From Quinella sp. 2Q5 (GTDB taxonomy: Bacteria; Bacillota; Negativicutes; Selenomonadales; Selenomonadaceae), in the NCBI GenBank assembly GCA_015206785.1, contig JADEZQ010000001.1, positions 62,001 through 126,000 on the forward strand: a stretch of 64,000 bases of DNA, given 5' to 3'. Positions within the stretch are counted from its first letter, which is position 1, and each line of letters opens with the position of its first letter. Position numbers and translations under genes: made by a program. The notes beneath the pieces were generated by a model. The model searched no databases and had not been told where the DNA came from. It saw only the letters and a program-made list of their open reading frames with translations. Of this stretch, positions 211-6,786 are shown one piece after another.

Positions 211-663
211 TTATTCGAGCGGGTCCGGTCCGTGCGGATTGTCGCCTTTTGTGCCGGGGCAAAGCATGATGTAAACCGTGATGACCGTGTTGACGATGCT
301 CAAGGTGGTTTCCAGGAACGACGGCTCCGCTTCCGGCAAATGCAGATCGACCGAGAGCGTCAGCAGGGAACTTATCACGAACTGCACATAGGCAAGCCGC
401 TCGTCCTTATCCATGTCGTGCAGGCGTCTCATTGACAGGCAAAGACACGGAACCAGCCCTGCCAATGAAATTGCTCTGGTGACCACGACGCCTAAGGAAG
501 AGATTTCGTTGTGCCCGGCCAAGTCAATCGACAGCACCACGACCAGAATCAGCATCTCGGCTACAGCGAGCATAAACATCCGTTTGAAATATCGCCAACG
601 GTTGAGCCGCCCGTCGCGCTTCAAAAAATTTTCGACAAGCCCTCTATCGGGCACTCTACTCAT
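211..663 (-). CDS. DUF805 family small membrane protein
   Basis: This 150-residue protein has four hydrophobic stretches and the two hallmarks of DUF805: the motif RRLHDMDK after the second hydrophobic stretch and a C-terminal PGTKGDNPHGPDP. It also carries the GRLNRWRYF element typical of the family N-terminus. DUF805 proteins are inner-membrane proteins of unknown function. The ATG at 663 is preceded by AGAGGTG at good spacing; a TTG at 669 is possible but too close to that site. The gene follows the ABC ATPase by 24 bases and may be its last operon member. A second DUF805 protein is at 40557-41177. Confidence 0.8.
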   Translation of the reverse strand: MSRVPDRGLVENFLKRDGRLNRWRYFKRMFMLAVAEMLILVVVLSIDLAGHNEISSLGVVVTRAISLAGLVPCLCLSMRRLHDMDKDERLAYVQFVISSLLTLSVDLHLPEAEPSFLETTLSIVNTVITVYIMLCPGTKGDNPHGPDPLE

Positions 664-687
664 TTGCAAACACCTCTGCGAAAGATT

Positions 688-1797
688 TTACGCCAGCGAA
701 AAATTTATTCGATTGACGCCGTCGGAATACTCGTGGGAATAATTTTGCGCCAGGTTGTGCAGAATGGTCGCGCCCAAGTTGTCCTCGTCGATGTCCGCGT
801 CAAAGTCTCTGTCGAGCGGATTGAACGGCTTGCCCGCGCAGGTTAAAGTTATCTCGACGCTGTTATCGATCTCGGCGTAGGTCACGTCCAACGAAATTTT
901 CACGGCGTCTTCGCACGCGTTGTTGAGCATCTCGTAAATCAGTTCCTCGCAACAAAGTTGCAGGCGATTCGTTCGGCGAGCACTCAGCCCGTATTTTTCC
1001 GCGAAAGATTGAATGCCGCCCTGCATCGCCGGCAAGTCGAAGGCGCGTTCGGAAATTTCGTGGCTGAAATATTTTTGCTTGTGGATGAACGCGACGGTCT
1101 TGGGACGTTTGGGCGCGTCGAAGATTTCTGCGGGCGTGCCCTGCTCATAAATCACGCCGTCGGCGAAGAACAAAACTCTGTCGGCAACCTCGCGGGCAAA
1201 GTTCATCTCGTGCGTGACGATCAACATCGTCAAATCGTGTTTGGCGAGCATGCGAATGACTGCCAGCACCTCGCCAACCATTGTCGGGTCAAGCGCACTC
1301 GTCGGCTCGTCGAAGAGGATAACCTTCGGGTTCATCATCAGGCTGCGGCAGATGGCGATTCGCTGTTGTTGCCCGCCGGAGAGAACTTCGGGGAAGGTGT
1401 CCGCCTTAGACGTCAAGCCGACTTGCGCCAGGAGCTCCATTGCTTTTTGACGGGCGTCGTCGGGCGTCATGCCCAGAAGTTTTATCGGCGCGACGGTCAA
1501 ATTTTCCATAACGTTCATGTGCTTGAACAGGTTAAACCTTTGCCAGACCATGCCGAGCTTTCGGCGCACGCGGTCGATGTCGACGTTGGGCGCGGTGATT
1601 TCTTCGCCGTCGATGAAAATTTTTCCGCCGTCGGGAACTTCCAACAGCTCCAGGCACCGCAGGAAAATACTTTTGCCGCAGCCGCTGCCGCCGATGATTG
1701 CGATGCGTTCGCCTGCCTCAACCGTCAAGTCTATGCCGCGCAAGACTTCCAACGCACCGAAAGATTTCTTCAGCCCGCGCACTTCGATAACGCTCAT
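688..1797 (-). CDS. Polar amino-acid-type ABC transporter ATPase fused to an RsbW-like ATPase domain
   Basis: Residues 1 to about 240 are a complete GlnQ/HisP-type ATPase: Walker A GGSGCGKS, signature LSGGQQQR, Walker [14 protein letters not shown] and H-loop IVTHE. About 130 further residues follow. They resemble the histidine-kinase-like ATPase fold of anti-sigma kinases (HATPase_c_2, RsbW type): an N-box-like [13 protein letters not shown], a G1-like GKPFNPLD, and a C-terminal [14 protein letters not shown] then GVNRINFSL. GlnQ proteins normally end near residue 245, so this extension is unusual. The start ATG at 1797 overlaps the permease stop by four bases (ATGA). The ATPase half should drive import; the C-terminal half could sense or regulate, which is inference. 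Confidence 0.85.
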
Positions 1798-2456
1798 TGC
1801 CCGCGCCTCCTGTCGCTCCAATTGAAGAGCCCGTAAACCAGATACGACAACGCCAGATAAATTATCATGCCGCCGGTGATTGTGATCATCGGTTGCATTG
1901 TGCGCGAGGCGATGTTGTTTATGACGCGCGTCAAATCCGTGATGGTGACGTAACCGACGACGCTGGTCCACTGAATCAGGTTGACGATTGTGGATTGATA
2001 GACGGGCTTGGCGATTCTAACCAGTTGCGGCAACGTGACGAGCTTGAACGCCTGAAGTTTCGAGAAGCCCAGAGTCCGCGCCGCTTCAACCTGCCCGACG
2101 TCGAGAGCCATGAGCGAGGCGCGCAAGAGTTCCGCCACGTGCGCCGCCGTGTGCATAGAGAACGTCACCACCGCCACGAGTTCGGGGCTCAGTCCTTGGC
2201 GGGCGAAGACGCCGTAGAACAGCAACATTAGCAACATCAGCACGGGCGAGCCGCGGATTATCGAGATGTAAACCTGCGCGACGATCTTGAGCGGGGTGAA
2301 CTTGCCGACGCGAAAAAAACACAGCAGAGAGCCGAACAACGTTCCGAACAGCAGGCTCAGCGCGGAAATTTCCACCGTCACCCGCAGTCCGTTGAGGATG
2401 GTCAGCCAGCCGCCGTCTTTGAGGAAAATTTTATACAGCAGCTCCGTAAATTCCAT
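1794..2456 (-). CDS. Polar amino-acid-type ABC transporter permease (HisM/GlnP family)
   Basis: This 220-residue inner-membrane protein has about five transmembrane segments and the EAA loop [21 protein letters not shown] region that docks the ATPase. Its N-terminus (about residues 17-40) matches the conserved start of BPD_transp_1 domains in amino-acid importers. It is the only permease in the locus, so it presumably forms a homodimer. Its ATG at 2456 follows the stop of the first binding-protein gene by a few bases, and its stop overlaps the ATPase start, indicating translational coupling. Substrate is unknown because the accompanying binding proteins are atypical. Confidence 0.9.
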
Positions 2457-2460
2457 ACGC

Positions 2461-3312
2461 TCACTTCTTCTCTGCTTTGAAGATCATGTGGACGTTCTTG
2501 TCCTTGAAGTACGGCTCGGACAGAATGACGCCGTCGGGTTTGTCGCTGTCTTCGGGGATGACTTCGCTGATGGGGACGATTGCCCAGAAGACGACGTCGA
2601 CTTGTTTGGAGGTCAACGCGGCGGCACGGGCACCGCTTTCGATTTGGATGAGCTCAACGTTCTTGTGCAGGCGGTTGCCAACTTCAGCGAGCACGGCGGT
2701 ATTGAAACCCGCGGGCGTTCCGTTTGCCAAAACCAAATCCAAAGGCGGCAGGTCACCCGTCACGGCAACTTTGATCGTGTCTGCGCCGTCGAAGTGCGGC
2801 AACTCCACGGGTGCGGGGTCGGTGCCCTCTTTGATGTCGGTGATGTATTCCTTCGTCAGGCGGTCAAGCGTACCGTCAGCTTGCATGTCTTTGATGACTT
2901 TGTTGAGCGAATCGCGCAGTTCGGTTTCGTCTTCGCGCAGGGCAAAGCAGAACGAATCGATGAATTCGAGCGAATGATCCTTGAGCACCTCAAAGCGCGG
3001 TTCTTTCGCCAGAATGTAACGCGCAACGCTGCGATAGGTGCTCATCTCGTCGACCTGCCCCGCTTGAATCGCTGACTGCATCTGCGCCAGGCTGTCGAAG
3101 AAAACGATCTTGTGCGAGGCAATCTTCACGTCGAGCGTGTCTTCAATCTTGCGCATGAACTCATCGAAATTTTCCTCGCTTGCGTTCAGGCGGGTTATCA
3201 TGCCGAGCTTGACTTTGGAGGCGTCCTTGTCGATGGGCTTCTTGCCTTCGGAGCCGCAACCCGTCATCAGCACAAGCGCACAAATCATCATCAGGGTCAA
3301 AAATTTTTTCAT
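2461..3312 (-). CDS. Permuted family-3-like solute-binding lipoprotein (copy 1)
   Basis: The 283-residue product starts with a lipoprotein signal peptide ending LVLMTGCG, so the mature protein should be anchored by its cysteine. The sequence then reads in an unusual order. About residues 35-165 resemble the second half of a family-3 solute-binding protein, ending DMQADGTLDRLTKEYITD, which is normally the C-terminal helix. About residues 180-283 resemble the normal N-terminal half (TIKVAVTGDLPPLDLV, then GFNTAVLAEVGNRL and VDVVFWAIVP). It is the closest of five paralogues to the permease gene. The bound solute cannot be predicted; the usual carboxylate-binding arginine motif after the VDVVFW strand is absent. 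Confidence 0.8.
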   Translation of the reverse strand: MKKFLTLMMICALVLMTGCGSEGKKPIDKDASKVKLGMITRLNASEENFDEFMRKIEDTLDVKIASHKIVFFDSLAQMQSAIQAGQVDEMSTYRSVARYILAKEPRFEVLKDHSLEFIDSFCFALREDETELRDSLNKVIKDMQADGTLDRLTKEYITDIKEGTDPAPVELPHFDGADTIKVAVTGDLPPLDLVLANGTPAGFNTAVLAEVGNRLHKNVELIQIESGARAAALTSKQVDVVFWAIVPISEVIPEDSDKPDGVILSEPYFKDKNVHMIFKAEKK

Positions 3313-3321
3313 GTGGTTACC

Positions 3322-4158
3322 TCATTTCTTCAGCTTAACGTGAACAATCTCGTCGGTGAAATACGGCACAGTCAGAATCACGCCTTCGGGGATGTCGCAG
3401 TCGGGCGGGGCAAGCGTTTCGTTCTGCGGCACGGCAACCCAAAACACAACGTCGACCTGTTTGGACGTCAGAGCCACGGCTCGGGCACCGCTGTCGATTT
3501 TGACAAGCTCAAAGTTTTTGCCGAGTTTCGAAGCAATTTCGGCAAGTAGCGCGGTATTGAAACCGGAGGGTCTGCCGTCCGGCAAAACCAAATCCAAAGG
3601 CGGCAGGTCACCGGTCACGGCAACCTTAACCGTCTCCGCGTCATTGAAGTTCGGCATCGCCACGGGTGGCAAGTTTTCATCAGCGTTCGTGATATAAGTT
3701 CCCGTCAGCTTCTTGAGCGTGCCCTCCGTCCGTAGCTCGTCAATGGCGGTGTCGAATTCCTTCTGCAAGGCGACGTTCTCCTTGAGCAGGGCGCAACAGA
3801 ACGAGTCGGAAACCTTCGGGATGCCGTGGTTCACGGGCACGAAGTCATCGTTCTGCGCGATAAGGTAGTTCGACACGCTGTAATAGGTGCTCAGCGCGTC
3901 AATCTGCTTCGATTTCAGGGCGGCAACCATCGACGTCATGTTGTCGAAGAAAATATGTTTGGGCGCGTACATTCCCGAAGTCTGTTGCATGCGGGAGGAT
4001 GCCTTCTCGAAGTAATTGTCCAGCAAGGTTTCGCTAACGTTCAGGTGGGTTATCATGCCGAGTTTGATTTGTCCTTCGGCGGATTTTTTTTCGCCGCTGC
4101 CGCAACCCGTCATCAGCGCGAGCACGCAAACCATCAGCAGGGTCAAAAATTTTTTCAT
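3322..4158 (-). CDS. Permuted family-3-like solute-binding lipoprotein (copy 2)
   Basis: A 278-residue lipoprotein with signal peptide ending LALMTGCG. It shares the permuted order of its neighbours: lobe-2-like segment first, then the helix ELRTEGTLKKLTGTYITN, then the normally N-terminal strand VKVAVTGDLPPLDLVLPDG. It is the most divergent copy in the first half (a short insertion with a QQTSGMYAPKH element) but keeps SGARAVALTSKQVDVVFW. The gap to copy 1 is nine bases, with a GAGGTAACC ribosome binding site, so the genes are co-transcribed. A different ligand from the other copies is plausible but unproven. Confidence 0.8.
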   Translation of the reverse strand: MKKFLTLLMVCVLALMTGCGSGEKKSAEGQIKLGMITHLNVSETLLDNYFEKASSRMQQTSGMYAPKHIFFDNMTSMVAALKSKQIDALSTYYSVSNYLIAQNDDFVPVNHGIPKVSDSFCCALLKENVALQKEFDTAIDELRTEGTLKKLTGTYITNADENLPPVAMPNFNDAETVKVAVTGDLPPLDLVLPDGRPSGFNTALLAEIASKLGKNFELVKIDSGARAVALTSKQVDVVFWVAVPQNETLAPPDCDIPEGVILTVPYFTDEIVHVKLKK

Positions 4159-4167
4159 CGGGCTACC

Positions 4168-5001
4168 TCACGATTTGATTTTGAGATGTTTGACGGAGTC
4201 CTTGAAGTAGGGCGTGCTGAATTCGACGCCTTCGGGCTTATCGATTTCGGAGGGGAGATTGTTGCCGTTGGGAACGACCGCCCAGAAGATCACGTCGATT
4301 TGATTGGAGGCAAGAGCCGCGGCACGTGCACCGCTGTCGATGTTGACGAGCTCAATGTTGCGACCGATGCGTTTGGCAATTTCGGCGAGCATGGCGGTAT
4401 TGAAGCCGGCGGGCGTTCCATCAGGCAGAACCAAATCCAAGGGCGGCAAGTCACCCGTCACGCCGACCTTGATCGTCGGTGCGCCGTCAATCATGGGAAT
4501 TTCCACGCGGGGAATATTGTCGGGCTCGGCGTCGGTGATGTAATCCTTGACGAGTTTGTCGAGCGTGCCGTCGGACTTCATCTCGTCGATTGCCTTGTCG
4601 AGCTGTGCTTTAAGTTCGGTGTCGTCCTTGCGCACGGCAAAGCAGAATGAATCGCTAAGCTTGCTCAACGCGTTGTCGGGAACTGATTCGTATTTGCCCG
4701 CGCCCGAAAGATAATTGGCGACGCACGAGTAAACGCTGATCTCGTTGACGTCGTTGGACTCAAGCCCCATCTGCATCGTGCTCAGGTTGTCGAAAAATTT
4801 CACGGTGTTCAATGCGACCTTCAAATCCGCCTTCTTGACGAGCTCGTCGTAAAGTTCTTTCATCTTCTGTTCGGTGGTGTTCAGGTGCGCAATCATGCCG
4901 AGTTTGGTCTCGTCGGCGGAAGGAGGAGTTTTGTCGGAGCCGCCGCAACCCGTCATCAACACGAGCGCACAGACCATCAGCAGAGCAAAAATTTTTTTCA
5001 T
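4168..5001 (-). CDS. Permuted family-3-like solute-binding lipoprotein (copy 3)
   Basis: A 277-residue lipoprotein with signal peptide ending LVLMTGCGG. It has the same permuted architecture as its neighbours. From SFCFAVRKDDTELKAQLDKA through the following 30-odd residues it is almost identical to copy 4, while the signal peptide looks like copies 1 and 2. This mosaic pattern points to recent duplication or gene conversion. The C-terminal half carries GVTGDLPPLDLVLPDG and IDSGARAAALASNQIDVIFW. It is spaced nine bases from copy 2 and has its own GAGGTGATCC-like ribosome binding site. Confidence 0.8.
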   Translation of the reverse strand: MKKIFALLMVCALVLMTGCGGSDKTPPSADETKLGMIAHLNTTEQKMKELYDELVKKADLKVALNTVKFFDNLSTMQMGLESNDVNEISVYSCVANYLSGAGKYESVPDNALSKLSDSFCFAVRKDDTELKAQLDKAIDEMKSDGTLDKLVKDYITDAEPDNIPRVEIPMIDGAPTIKVGVTGDLPPLDLVLPDGTPAGFNTAMLAEIAKRIGRNIELVNIDSGARAAALASNQIDVIFWAVVPNGNNLPSEIDKPEGVEFSTPYFKDSVKHLKIKS

Positions 5002-5043
5002 CGGATCACCTCATCGAATCAATTTGGCGAGAACGATGTCGCC

Positions 5044-5901
5044 TCACTTGTTGTACTTCAGGTGGCTGATGTCGTCTTTGAAGTAGGGCGTGCTGAATTC
5101 CACGCCCGCGGGCTTGTCGATGTCGGCGGGGACTTTGTCGTTGCCGGGGACGACCGCCCAGAAGATAACGTCGATTTGATTGGATGTTAACGCCGCGGCA
5201 CGCGCACCGCTATCGATGTCGACGAGCTCAACGTTGCGACCGATTCGTTTGGCAATTTCAGCGAGCATGGCGGTGTTGAAGCCGGCGGGCGTTCCATCAG
5301 GCAGAACCAAATCCAAAGGCGGCAGGTCACCCGTCACGCCGACTTTGAGCGTTTCGTTGCCTTCGGTCATGGGAATTTCCACGGCAGGAATGTTGTCGGG
5401 CTCGGCGTCGGTGATGTAATCCTTGACGAGTTTGTCGAGCGTGCCGTCAGACTTCATTTCGTCGATTGCCTTGTCAAGCTGTGCTTTGAGTTCGGTATCG
5501 TCCTTGCGCACGGCAAAGCAGAACGAATCGCTAAGCTTGCCAAAGGAAGTTTCGGTAGGGGCGAAGTGATTGTTCGTGGCGGTGATGTATTTGGCGACGC
5601 TCTCGTAAACGCTGATCTGGTCGACGCTGCCGCTTTCGATACCCATCTGCATCATGCGCAGGTTTTCGTAAAACGTGATGGTGTACTTGGAGACGTTGAC
5701 GCCGGTCTTTTCGGTGACGTTGTCGAGGATGCCTTCCATCTTCTTTTCGTTGGCATTCAGGTGAGTTATCATGCCCAGCTTAATCGGCTTGGCTTCGGGG
5801 GCTTTGGTATTATCGCCGCCCGACGAGCCGCCACAGCCCGTGAACAGTGCGCCCGCCAATACGCAGGACAGGAGAACCTTGACAGCCTTTTTGATATTCA
5901 T
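5044..5901 (-). CDS. Permuted family-3-like solute-binding lipoprotein (copy 4)
   Basis: A 285-residue lipoprotein with a signal peptide unlike the other copies (MNIKKAVKVLLSCVLAG, lipobox FTGCGG). The mature part has the shared permuted order and is nearly identical to copy 3 across the central helix and linker (KLVKDYITDAEPDNIP). After the linker it reads VEIPMTEGNETLKVGVTG and then the common LPPLDLVLPDG. The 42-base gap to copy 3 is the largest in the cluster and shows no clear terminator. The ribosome binding site GGAGG lies at suitable distance upstream of the ATG at 5901. Confidence 0.8.
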   Translation of the reverse strand: MNIKKAVKVLLSCVLAGALFTGCGGSSGGDNTKAPEAKPIKLGMITHLNANEKKMEGILDNVTEKTGVNVSKYTITFYENLRMMQMGIESGSVDQISVYESVAKYITATNNHFAPTETSFGKLSDSFCFAVRKDDTELKAQLDKAIDEMKSDGTLDKLVKDYITDAEPDNIPAVEIPMTEGNETLKVGVTGDLPPLDLVLPDGTPAGFNTAMLAEIAKRIGRNVELVDIDSGARAAALTSNQIDVIFWAVVPGNDKVPADIDKPAGVEFSTPYFKDDISHLKYNK

Positions 5902-5922
5902 GTCGTTAAACCTCCGTGAAAA

Positions 5923-6786
5923 TTATTTGGTGCTCTTGAGCTTGATATGAGCGACGTTGTCCGTGAAATATGGCGTGCTCAGTTCCAGACCCGCGGGCTT
6001 GTCGATGTCTTTGGGGATGTCGTCGTTGCCGAAGGGGACGACCGCCCAGAAGACCACGTCAATCAGTTTCGACGTCAGAGCCGCGGCTCGCGCACCCGTC
6101 TCAATATGAACAAGTTCGATGTTGCGGTTGATGCGGCGAGCAACTTCGGCGAGCATGGCGGTGTTGAAACCGGCGGGCGTTCCATCAGGCAGAATCAAAT
6201 CCAACGGCGGCAAGTCGCCCGTGATGCCGACTTTGATTGTCGGTGCGCCGTCAATCATGGGAATTTCCACGCGGGGAACGTTGTCGGATTTGACGTCGGT
6301 GATGTATTCGTTGACGAGCTTATCGAGCGTGCCGTCGGCTTTCATGTCGGCAACCGCCTTGTCGAGCTCGGCTTTAAGTTCGGTGTCGTCCTTGCGCACG
6401 GCGAAGCAGAATGAGTAGCGAATCTTCTCAAGCGCGTTGTCGGGAACGATCTCGTACTTGTTGTTGGTGGCGATGATGTATTTGGCGACGGTGCTATAGA
6501 GGCTGACCTCTTCGATGGTGCCCGCGTCCAGACCCATCTGCATGGTCTTCAAGTTGTCGTAGAATTTCGGGCGACGGTGCGTGTCTTTGATGCCGCTCTT
6601 CTCTTCAATGGTCATCAAGACGCCTTCGAAGGAAATTTCGTCAGAATTCAACGGGGCGAGCATGCCGAGCTGAACTTCCTTGCCGGAAAAATTGCTGCCG
6701 GTCTTGTCGACGCCCTGTTGACCGCCGGAGCCGCAGCCCGCCATCAACAGCACTGCCGCGCAGATTATCGCGAAAAAATTTCTCAT
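5923..6786 (-). CDS. Permuted family-3-like solute-binding lipoprotein (copy 5, first in operon)
   Basis: A 287-residue lipoprotein with signal peptide ending VLLMAGCGSGG. Its permuted architecture matches the four downstream copies. The linker VPRVEIPMIDGAPTIKVG is shared with copy 3. It lies 13 bases downstream of the mreB stop with only an AAGGA ribosome binding site between, so it may be co-transcribed with mreB; no separate promoter was found. As the first binding-protein gene it would probably be the best expressed, which is inference. Confidence 0.8.
   Translation of the reverse strand: MRNFFAIICAAVLLMAGCGSGGQQGVDKTGSNFSGKEVQLGMLAPLNSDEISFEGVLMTIEEKSGIKDTHRRPKFYDNLKTMQMGLDAGTIEEVSLYSTVAKYIIATNNKYEIVPDNALEKIRYSFCFAVRKDDTELKAELDKAVADMKADGTLDKLVNEYITDVKSDNVPRVEIPMIDGAPTIKVGITGDLPPLDLILPDGTPAGFNTAMLAEVARRINRNIELVHIETGARAAALTSKLIDVVFWAVVPFGNDDIPKDIDKPAGLELSTPYFTDNVAHIKLKSTK

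Follow-up and report, generated by a model that had tools for sequence, protein, structure and literature searches.

Most work on circular permutation concerns engineered proteins, or ancient one-time events that had to be inferred. Among the binding proteins of ATP-binding cassette (ABC) transporters, the closest natural case is TpMglB-2 (Tp0684) of Treponema pallidum, a circularly permuted, lipid-anchored protein for which a 'Type Ic / Cluster Bc' was proposed and which is reported to have homologues in treponemes and Gram-positive bacteria (PMC4990184). Searches of the open PubMed Central literature (which does not cover subscription journals) gave, among the matches listed, TpMglB-2 and engineered permutants and no natural permutant of the family-3 solute-binding proteins. 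Here we describe a tandem array of five genes for solute-binding lipoproteins from the rumen-type bacterium Quinella sp. 2Q5 (contig JADEZQ010000001.1, positions 62,001 to 126,000; this whole stretch of 64,000 nucleotides is called the window). The copies are numbered in transcription order, copy 1 being 6786-5923. We put at roughly 0.9 the probability that all five products are circular permutants of family 3 (SBP_bac_3, PF00497; cluster F, type II), lipid-anchored and bilobed, that they most likely originated by tandem duplication, and that the same kind of event was repeated separately in Bacillota.

Segment order and predicted fold of the five proteins

In all five copies, the two halves of the family-3 domain are reversed. 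The end portion of TIGR01096 (profile positions 149-250, 153-250, 156-250, 159-250 and 151-250 in copies 1 to 5) matches the N-terminal part of the protein, and the start of PF00497, in each case from its position 1, matches the C-terminal part. The PF00497 scores (57-79 bits) are above the cut-off of 26.4, and the TIGR01096 scores (55-75 bits) are below a cut-off of 256 that applies to the whole protein. No copy has the normal family-3 order, with the first half of lobe 1 ahead of lobe 2, and no type I sugar-binding family appears among the Pfam and NCBIfam matches of the five proteins at E values up to 1. The same swap is seen on a solved chain (4zv1, AncQR), where positions 181-273 of a five-copy profile align with chain residues 10-95 and positions 63-160 with residues 134-230.

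Rotating the sequence at the linker merged the two partial matches into a single continuous one for copy 1 (57.6 to 76.9 bits), copy 3 (46.2 to 88.9) and copy 5 (49.5 to 81.6), as judged by a scan with a 228-position profile derived from 22 canonical proteins. Of four canonical controls, which had themselves gone into the profile, three had their best score at rotation 0 and one at rotation 3, and two shuffled copies gave no match in the scan. The alignments place the cut of the window family at the hinge between the lobes.

AlphaFold2, run on the mature part of copy 2 with 82 aligned rows, returned a single confident fold (predicted local distance difference test, pLDDT, 93.7; predicted template modelling score, pTM, 0.88), in which the elements follow each other, by reading, as lobe 2, the return strand with two helices, and the first half of lobe 1. 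A sequential Foldseek search aligned this model with targets that we take to be type II binding-protein folds at TMq of 0.28-0.47 and root-mean-square deviations of 6.0-10.8 Å (50 of 1355 rows), low values being what a permuted, pseudo-symmetric protein should give. The predicted structure supports the permutation without proving it.

Several points weigh against this reading of the window family. The pieces of copies 2 and 4 stayed unmerged in the rotation scan against the canonical profile; the halves resemble canonical proteins weakly (24-35% identity in the best rows), and the nearest canonical relatives are too distant to assign both halves to one gene. The Foldseek comparison lacks a matched control: the model of a canonical protein (L070), folded without an alignment, reached a pLDDT of 38.8 and was left unused, and none of the 39 candidate stretches was confirmed when canonical relatives for a control alignment were sought in viral contigs.

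A preliminary description of this DNA, made from its letters, had proposed a reversed half order in all five copies and, on that ground, circular permutation. It had set a hidden Markov model (HMM) search by separate halves as a test beforehand, and the resulting matches are not in the normal order. The first proposal is borne out by the HMM order and the swapped pieces on 4zv1, and the second gains in addition from the rotation scan (three of the five copies) and from the model of one copy, which is one fold and not the two unrelated domains named there as a refuting outcome. The linker motif DAEPDNIP, which it had assigned to two copies, is indeed present in both (4168-5001 and 5044-5901).

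Operon, close relatives and proposed function

The five genes and the two that follow them form an operon (Table 1). The gaps within the array are 21, 42, 9 and 9 bases in transcription order, the permease gene comes 4 bases after copy 5, and the ATPase gene overlaps the permease gene. A GAGG/AGGA-type stretch can be seen by eye upstream of each array gene, and at the N terminus of each binding protein there is a signal peptide with a lipobox-like motif whose last residues are GCG. The permease scores 68.5 bits on TIGR01726 (cut-off 42.2), which marks it as a polar amino-acid type partner. A gene for a DUF805 membrane protein (211-669, minus strand) comes immediately after the ATPase gene and perhaps belongs to the same operon.

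Table 1. Positions in the window of the array, its operon partners and the segments of copy 2 (aa, amino acids)
Feature	Positions	Strand	Remarks
Copy 1, permuted binding lipoprotein, 287 aa	5923..6786	minus	HMM matches aa 69-162 (lobe 2 and old C-terminal part), 184-246 (old N-terminal part)
Copy 2, permuted binding lipoprotein, 285 aa	5044..5901	minus	HMM matches aa 72-163, 185-251; mature part modelled
Copy 3, permuted binding lipoprotein, 277 aa	4168..5001	minus	HMM matches aa 67-155, 177-245
Copy 4, permuted binding lipoprotein, 278 aa	3322..4158	minus	HMM matches aa 71-156, 177-239
Copy 5, permuted binding lipoprotein, 283 aa	2461..3312	minus	HMM matches aa 65-157, 180-245
Copy 2, lobe 2, first after the lipid anchor	5521..5784, ~aa 40-127	minus	Limits judged visually from the alignment
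Copy 2, return strand and old C-terminal helices of lobe 1	5413..5520, ~aa 128-163	minus	
Copy 2, linker between old C and N termini	5353..5412, ~aa 164-183	minus	
Copy 2, lobe-1 half that was N-terminal in the old order, now last	5047..5352, ~aa 184-285	minus	
Permease, polar amino-acid type	1794..2456	minus	PF00528, TIGR01726
ABC ATPase with C-terminal HATPase_c_2 domain	688..1797	minus	Best NCBIfam matches EhuA, TcyN, GlnQ; start set at MSVIEVRG

The closest match of the array proteins lies on a Quinella contig (75% identity). The best 80 matches of a genome-contig scan were kept as 67 loci (L009-L075), of which 65 are titled as Selenomonadaceae, as a genus of that family or as Selenomonadales, and the other two carry the label Veillonellaceae. 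Read with separate half profiles, these loci contain 216 distinct permuted open reading frames (ORFs), four of which touch a locus edge, and none of the loci is without one; a further seven ORFs match the first-half profile only (two of them, in L053 and L070, are canonical by a wider profile) and two the second-half profile only. Since each of the 216 two-half ORFs is permuted, as are the sister proteins L134 (of G043) and L147 (of G307) from two other Bacillota families, the earlier suggestion that the permutation predates the expansion is supported. The more distant loci gave six permuted, five canonical and nine single-half readings. Two relatives carry array copies split into a first-half and a second-half ORF (L029:7474-8354 and L056:13291-14055) by frameshifts, stops or assembly errors.

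Class-wide, five of 200 genomes (its own included) match at an E value of 1e-20, so the window family is patchy in its class. In another family of the class, genome G561 has a run of four permuted proteins that are related to one another and strongly diverged (L153:3-3314, plus strand). The host genome itself (1.82 Mb, 79% complete) encodes three further array-type proteins (C2:43344, C16:14303 and C16:22853); its contig C14 shows weaker single-half matches, including one canonical-like frame with the old N-terminal half first. The window-family proteins are under purifying selection: in ten closest-relative pairs (the two closest per copy), nonsynonymous divergence (dN) is 0.13-0.24 and synonymous divergence (dS) ranges from 0.96 to saturated.

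In HisJ, LAO and GlnBP structures, the Arg of a TxxR motif and an Asp of lobe 2 clamp the alpha-amino acid. The Arg is present in 26/26 canonical rows and in 0/11 rows of the window family, the Asp in 23/26 and 0/11, respectively. Among 22 other permuted rows, 18 retain the Arg and 16 the Asp, the sisters G043 and G307 lacking both, which ties the loss to the window lineage and its sisters rather than to permutation as such. With the clamp residues missing, the ligand of the window family need not be an ordinary amino acid.

The two lobes have diverged unevenly. Mean identity within the window family is 0.38-0.39 for lobe 2 versus 0.55 and 0.62-0.63 for the two parts of lobe 1; the corresponding values for 231 canonical pairs (0.31 versus 0.38 and 0.38) are less uneven. 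The paralogues would share one permease and, because lobe 2 varies so much more than lobe 1, probably differ in ligand; diversity of ligands on lobe 2 beside a constant docking lobe would fit this variation. Copies 2 and 3 (4168-5901) are a mosaic, with DNA identity of 0.55-0.72 up to codon 128 and 0.75-0.98 beyond it (20-codon windows), as if the lobe-1 part had recently been exchanged. As a general driver of the arrays, gene conversion was considered and dropped: at matched lobe-2 identity, lobe-1 identity is barely higher in 371 within-locus pairs than in 23065 between-locus pairs (for the old N-terminal half, 0.61 versus 0.60 at lobe-2 identity of 0.3-0.4).

On the permutation reading, the chain begins at the old hinge between lobes 1 and 2, passes through lobe 2 and goes back into lobe 1 to form what used to be its C-terminal helices; a linker of ~20 residues joining the old ends follows, and the formerly N-terminal half of lobe 1 comes last, each lobe being continuous. 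The fold would be the usual Venus flytrap, taking a small solute between the lobes and handing it to the adjoining permease and ATPase. Lipid-anchored family-3 proteins close on their solute and dock on the permease; the permutants would presumably work likewise, with the anchor shifted from lobe 1 to the hinge/lobe-2 end.

One could suppose instead that these proteins are sensors or decoys that no longer bind a solute or do not deliver it, perhaps tied to the unusual tail of the ATPase. The absence of both clamp residues points that way and weakens the case for solute binding. So does the single copy in 17 of the 67 relative loci, several of which are among those with no permease found after the array. 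Altogether no permease was found after the array in 19 of the 67 loci and no ATPase in 35 (of the 19, eight have <500 bases of contig left), which counts against the main reading. The HATPase_c_2 tail, anti-sigma-kinase-like in the window, has a similar counterpart on 32/32 of the ATPases found after relatives' arrays, which also suits a sensory role; the Asp expected in the nucleotide-binding G1 box was not seen by eye, and the tail may for that reason be non-catalytic. On the other hand, the proteins are under purifying selection, a permease follows the array in 48 of the 67 loci, and the tandem radiation reaches eight copies (L037). We regard a sensory or decoy role as unlikely and retain solute binding by permuted family-3 proteins as the working interpretation.

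Recurrence of permutation in Bacillota and its route

A profile spanning the seam was searched in 398 Bacillota genomes and the ORFs found were then read with the half profiles. Permuted family-3 proteins occur in at least 20 of these genomes (G000, G361, G043, G211, G131, G097, G397, G307, G186 and G011, and further G246, G080, G134, G235, G096, G283, G222, G217, G207 and G375), a lower bound drawn from the matches listed, with at most seven candidates scored per genome. For the remote non-fused proteins, rotation produced one continuous canonical match in 13/13 cases tried (107-258 bits), and in 11 of the 13 the natural ends meet within ~5 profile positions; unmatched gaps of ~12 and ~25 positions separate them in L152 and L134, respectively. 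Seam-spanning matches not counted as permuted were L112 (two adjacent canonical genes) and L113 and L114 (both H1-H2-H1-H2). In a plasmid collection, the permuted queries L083 and L088 found only two-piece, canonical-like matches among the best 15 of 1819 and 1805 records.

The chain is cut at different places in different lineages: near profile position 100, that is at the hinge, in G080, G246, G307 and (by its start) G043; near 112 in G131, G211, G186 and G375; near 130 in G235, G096 and G283; and near 170 in G222. Within a lineage the cut is kept. A 170-type protein was found in 12 of 80 genomes of its family, each of another genus and the query genome included, with the same cut in 12/12 fetched loci; a G246-type protein was found at an E value of 1e-40 in 16 of 80 genomes, the query genome included, and the 12 fetched of these 16 are cut close to position 100. 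Such conservation across genera argues against assembly error.

Several of the remote proteins are fused to a permease, according to Pfam (L081/L140 and L080/L146) or by reading (L135, L137, L138, L139 and L141). Permease and ATPase genes adjoin L136, L144, L148 and L151; both also accompany L134 and L147 in another gene order. L140, fused to its permease, is followed by an ATPase gene, and L143 adjoins a permease, the stretch read containing no ATPase. The neighbours of L142 are trehalose genes; L152 is preceded by a CBS-domain gene and followed by a permease encoded on the opposite strand. In one gene (L146:4954-7290, plus strand; the same in L080 and L107), the half-domains run H2-H1-H2-H1 and then into the permease, which can be read as two successive permuted domains or as a permuted domain with a canonical one inside it; L135 (G043), truncated where its contig ends, seems to belong to this type. 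G134 likewise reads H2-H1-H2-H1 ahead of a permease, and its inner part could be a canonical domain.

A tree of 59 rows with the permutation undone requires eight changes of the canonical/permuted label, at least six of them forced by starred branches, and a single origin for all 33 permuted rows is rejected (approximately unbiased test, p-AU 1.8e-12). As the full tree carried a long-branch warning, we also analysed a subset of eight closer permuted and 25 canonical rows, where grouping the eight against the 25 is rejected as well (p-AU 1.9e-96) and the fewest changes are four. The groups for these tests were named only once the tree had been seen, and any change could in principle be a return to canonical order.

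The clearest single case is provided by a syntenic pair. In G080 and in G116, a genome of another genus, neighbouring genes occur in the same order (57, 56, 44, 75 and 84% identity), and the binding protein at the shared place is permuted in G080 and canonical in G116. Compared half by half in swapped order, the two proteins show 77% and 79% identity; upon rotation, 173 of 231 aligned residues are identical, versus 100 of 134 without it. Textbook accounts give two routes to circular permutation, duplication via tandem intermediates and fission with fusion (PMC3320104). Two canonical binding domains of one ORF (L114:1096-2679, minus strand), joined by a few residues and identical at 181 of 227 positions, represent a possible precursor form that the duplication model needs. 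By analogy with the syntenic pair and this tandem, the most likely origin of the window permutation is a tandem duplication in frame, after which the outer halves were lost. The preliminary description had suggested just such a duplication with trimming of both ends; for the window family itself, the analogy is what makes it likely.

The second textbook route leads to a different account, in which a lobe-2 half and a lobe-1 half from different binding-protein genes were joined into a chimera imitating a permutation. When each half was compared separately with 22 canonical proteins and a few tandem ones, the nearest rows of the two halves differed or were too weak to decide for the window family itself and for L134, L137, L138, L139 and L146, which leaves room for a chimera. 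For L136, L140, L143, L144, L145, L102, L148, L149, L151, L142 and L152, on the contrary, both halves point to the same small canonical group, and in G080 both are close to the one canonical gene at the same syntenic place. A chimera of unrelated halves is unsupported for the non-fused remote proteins and L140; for the window family and several fused proteins the comparison does not separate the two accounts, and for the window family we hold a chimera to be unlikely.

Domain swapping, where lobe-1 halves would pair between molecules of a dimer or oligomer with no permuted fold in any single chain, has no direct point in its favor, although paralogues encoded side by side could be made together. 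One chain is predicted as a confident fold (a result that AlphaFold2 could also give for a swapped protein) and the linker has room to join the old ends; we consider swapping highly improbable. That there is no permutation at all, the halves of a normal-order protein having been confused through the resemblance of pseudo-symmetric type II lobes (which the end-to-end, low-TM Foldseek alignments would allow), can practically be dismissed, given that profiles separating the lobes are reversed in 5/5 copies and on the solved chain and that canonical proteins read in normal order in the same half-profile test.

With circular permutation as the preferred interpretation, we judge it fairly probable that family 3 constitutes a recurrent natural permutation experiment, with at least four separate events in Bacillota at about four cut sites (near 100, 112, 130 and 170), one of them recent (the syntenic pair, at 75% identity), yielding conserved lipoproteins or permease-fused receptors. 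In the window lineage, continuous lobes may have freed lobe 2 to diversify while lobe 1 stayed conserved, and so have fed a radiation in which as many as eight tandem receptors serve a single permease.

Comparison with known systems

We think that the recurrence of permutation in family 3 is the real finding. It allows a canonical orthologue to be set against a permuted one at a single syntenic place, and the comparison to be extended over several origins and cut points, in proteins whose mechanism is well understood; the effect of moved termini, anchor or tether on folding, affinity and transport thereby becomes testable. For annotation, permuted proteins are split into two partial profile matches and score low in sequential structure searches. 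Family-3 proteins also serve as biosensor scaffolds, of which these are ready-made natural permutants.

With canonical family 3 (PF00497, TIGR01096; HisJ, ArgT, GlnH; AncQR 4zv1), the window proteins share both halves, the kind of permease and ATPase, and the lipobox; they differ in the order of the halves and in lacking the TxxR Arg and the lobe-2 Asp. Tandem domains of the GlnPQ type (6h30) illustrate that family-3 domains fused to a permease are found outside the permuted relatives too; in the latter, however, the domain adjoining the permease ends with the old first half of lobe 1 and not with the C-terminal helices. TpMglB-2 is likewise a natural, lipid-anchored, circularly permuted ABC binding protein. 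It belongs, however, to the type I (cluster B) sugar-binding proteins and has its cut within the N lobe, with the first three N-lobe strands near the C terminus and a fourth hinge crossing (PMC4990184), whereas the window proteins belong to family 3 and are cut at the hinge. Finally, permutants and halves of periplasmic binding proteins of the same fold class have been engineered (PMC9815098, PMC6335823); those were designed, whereas the permutations described here are natural, conserved and repeated.

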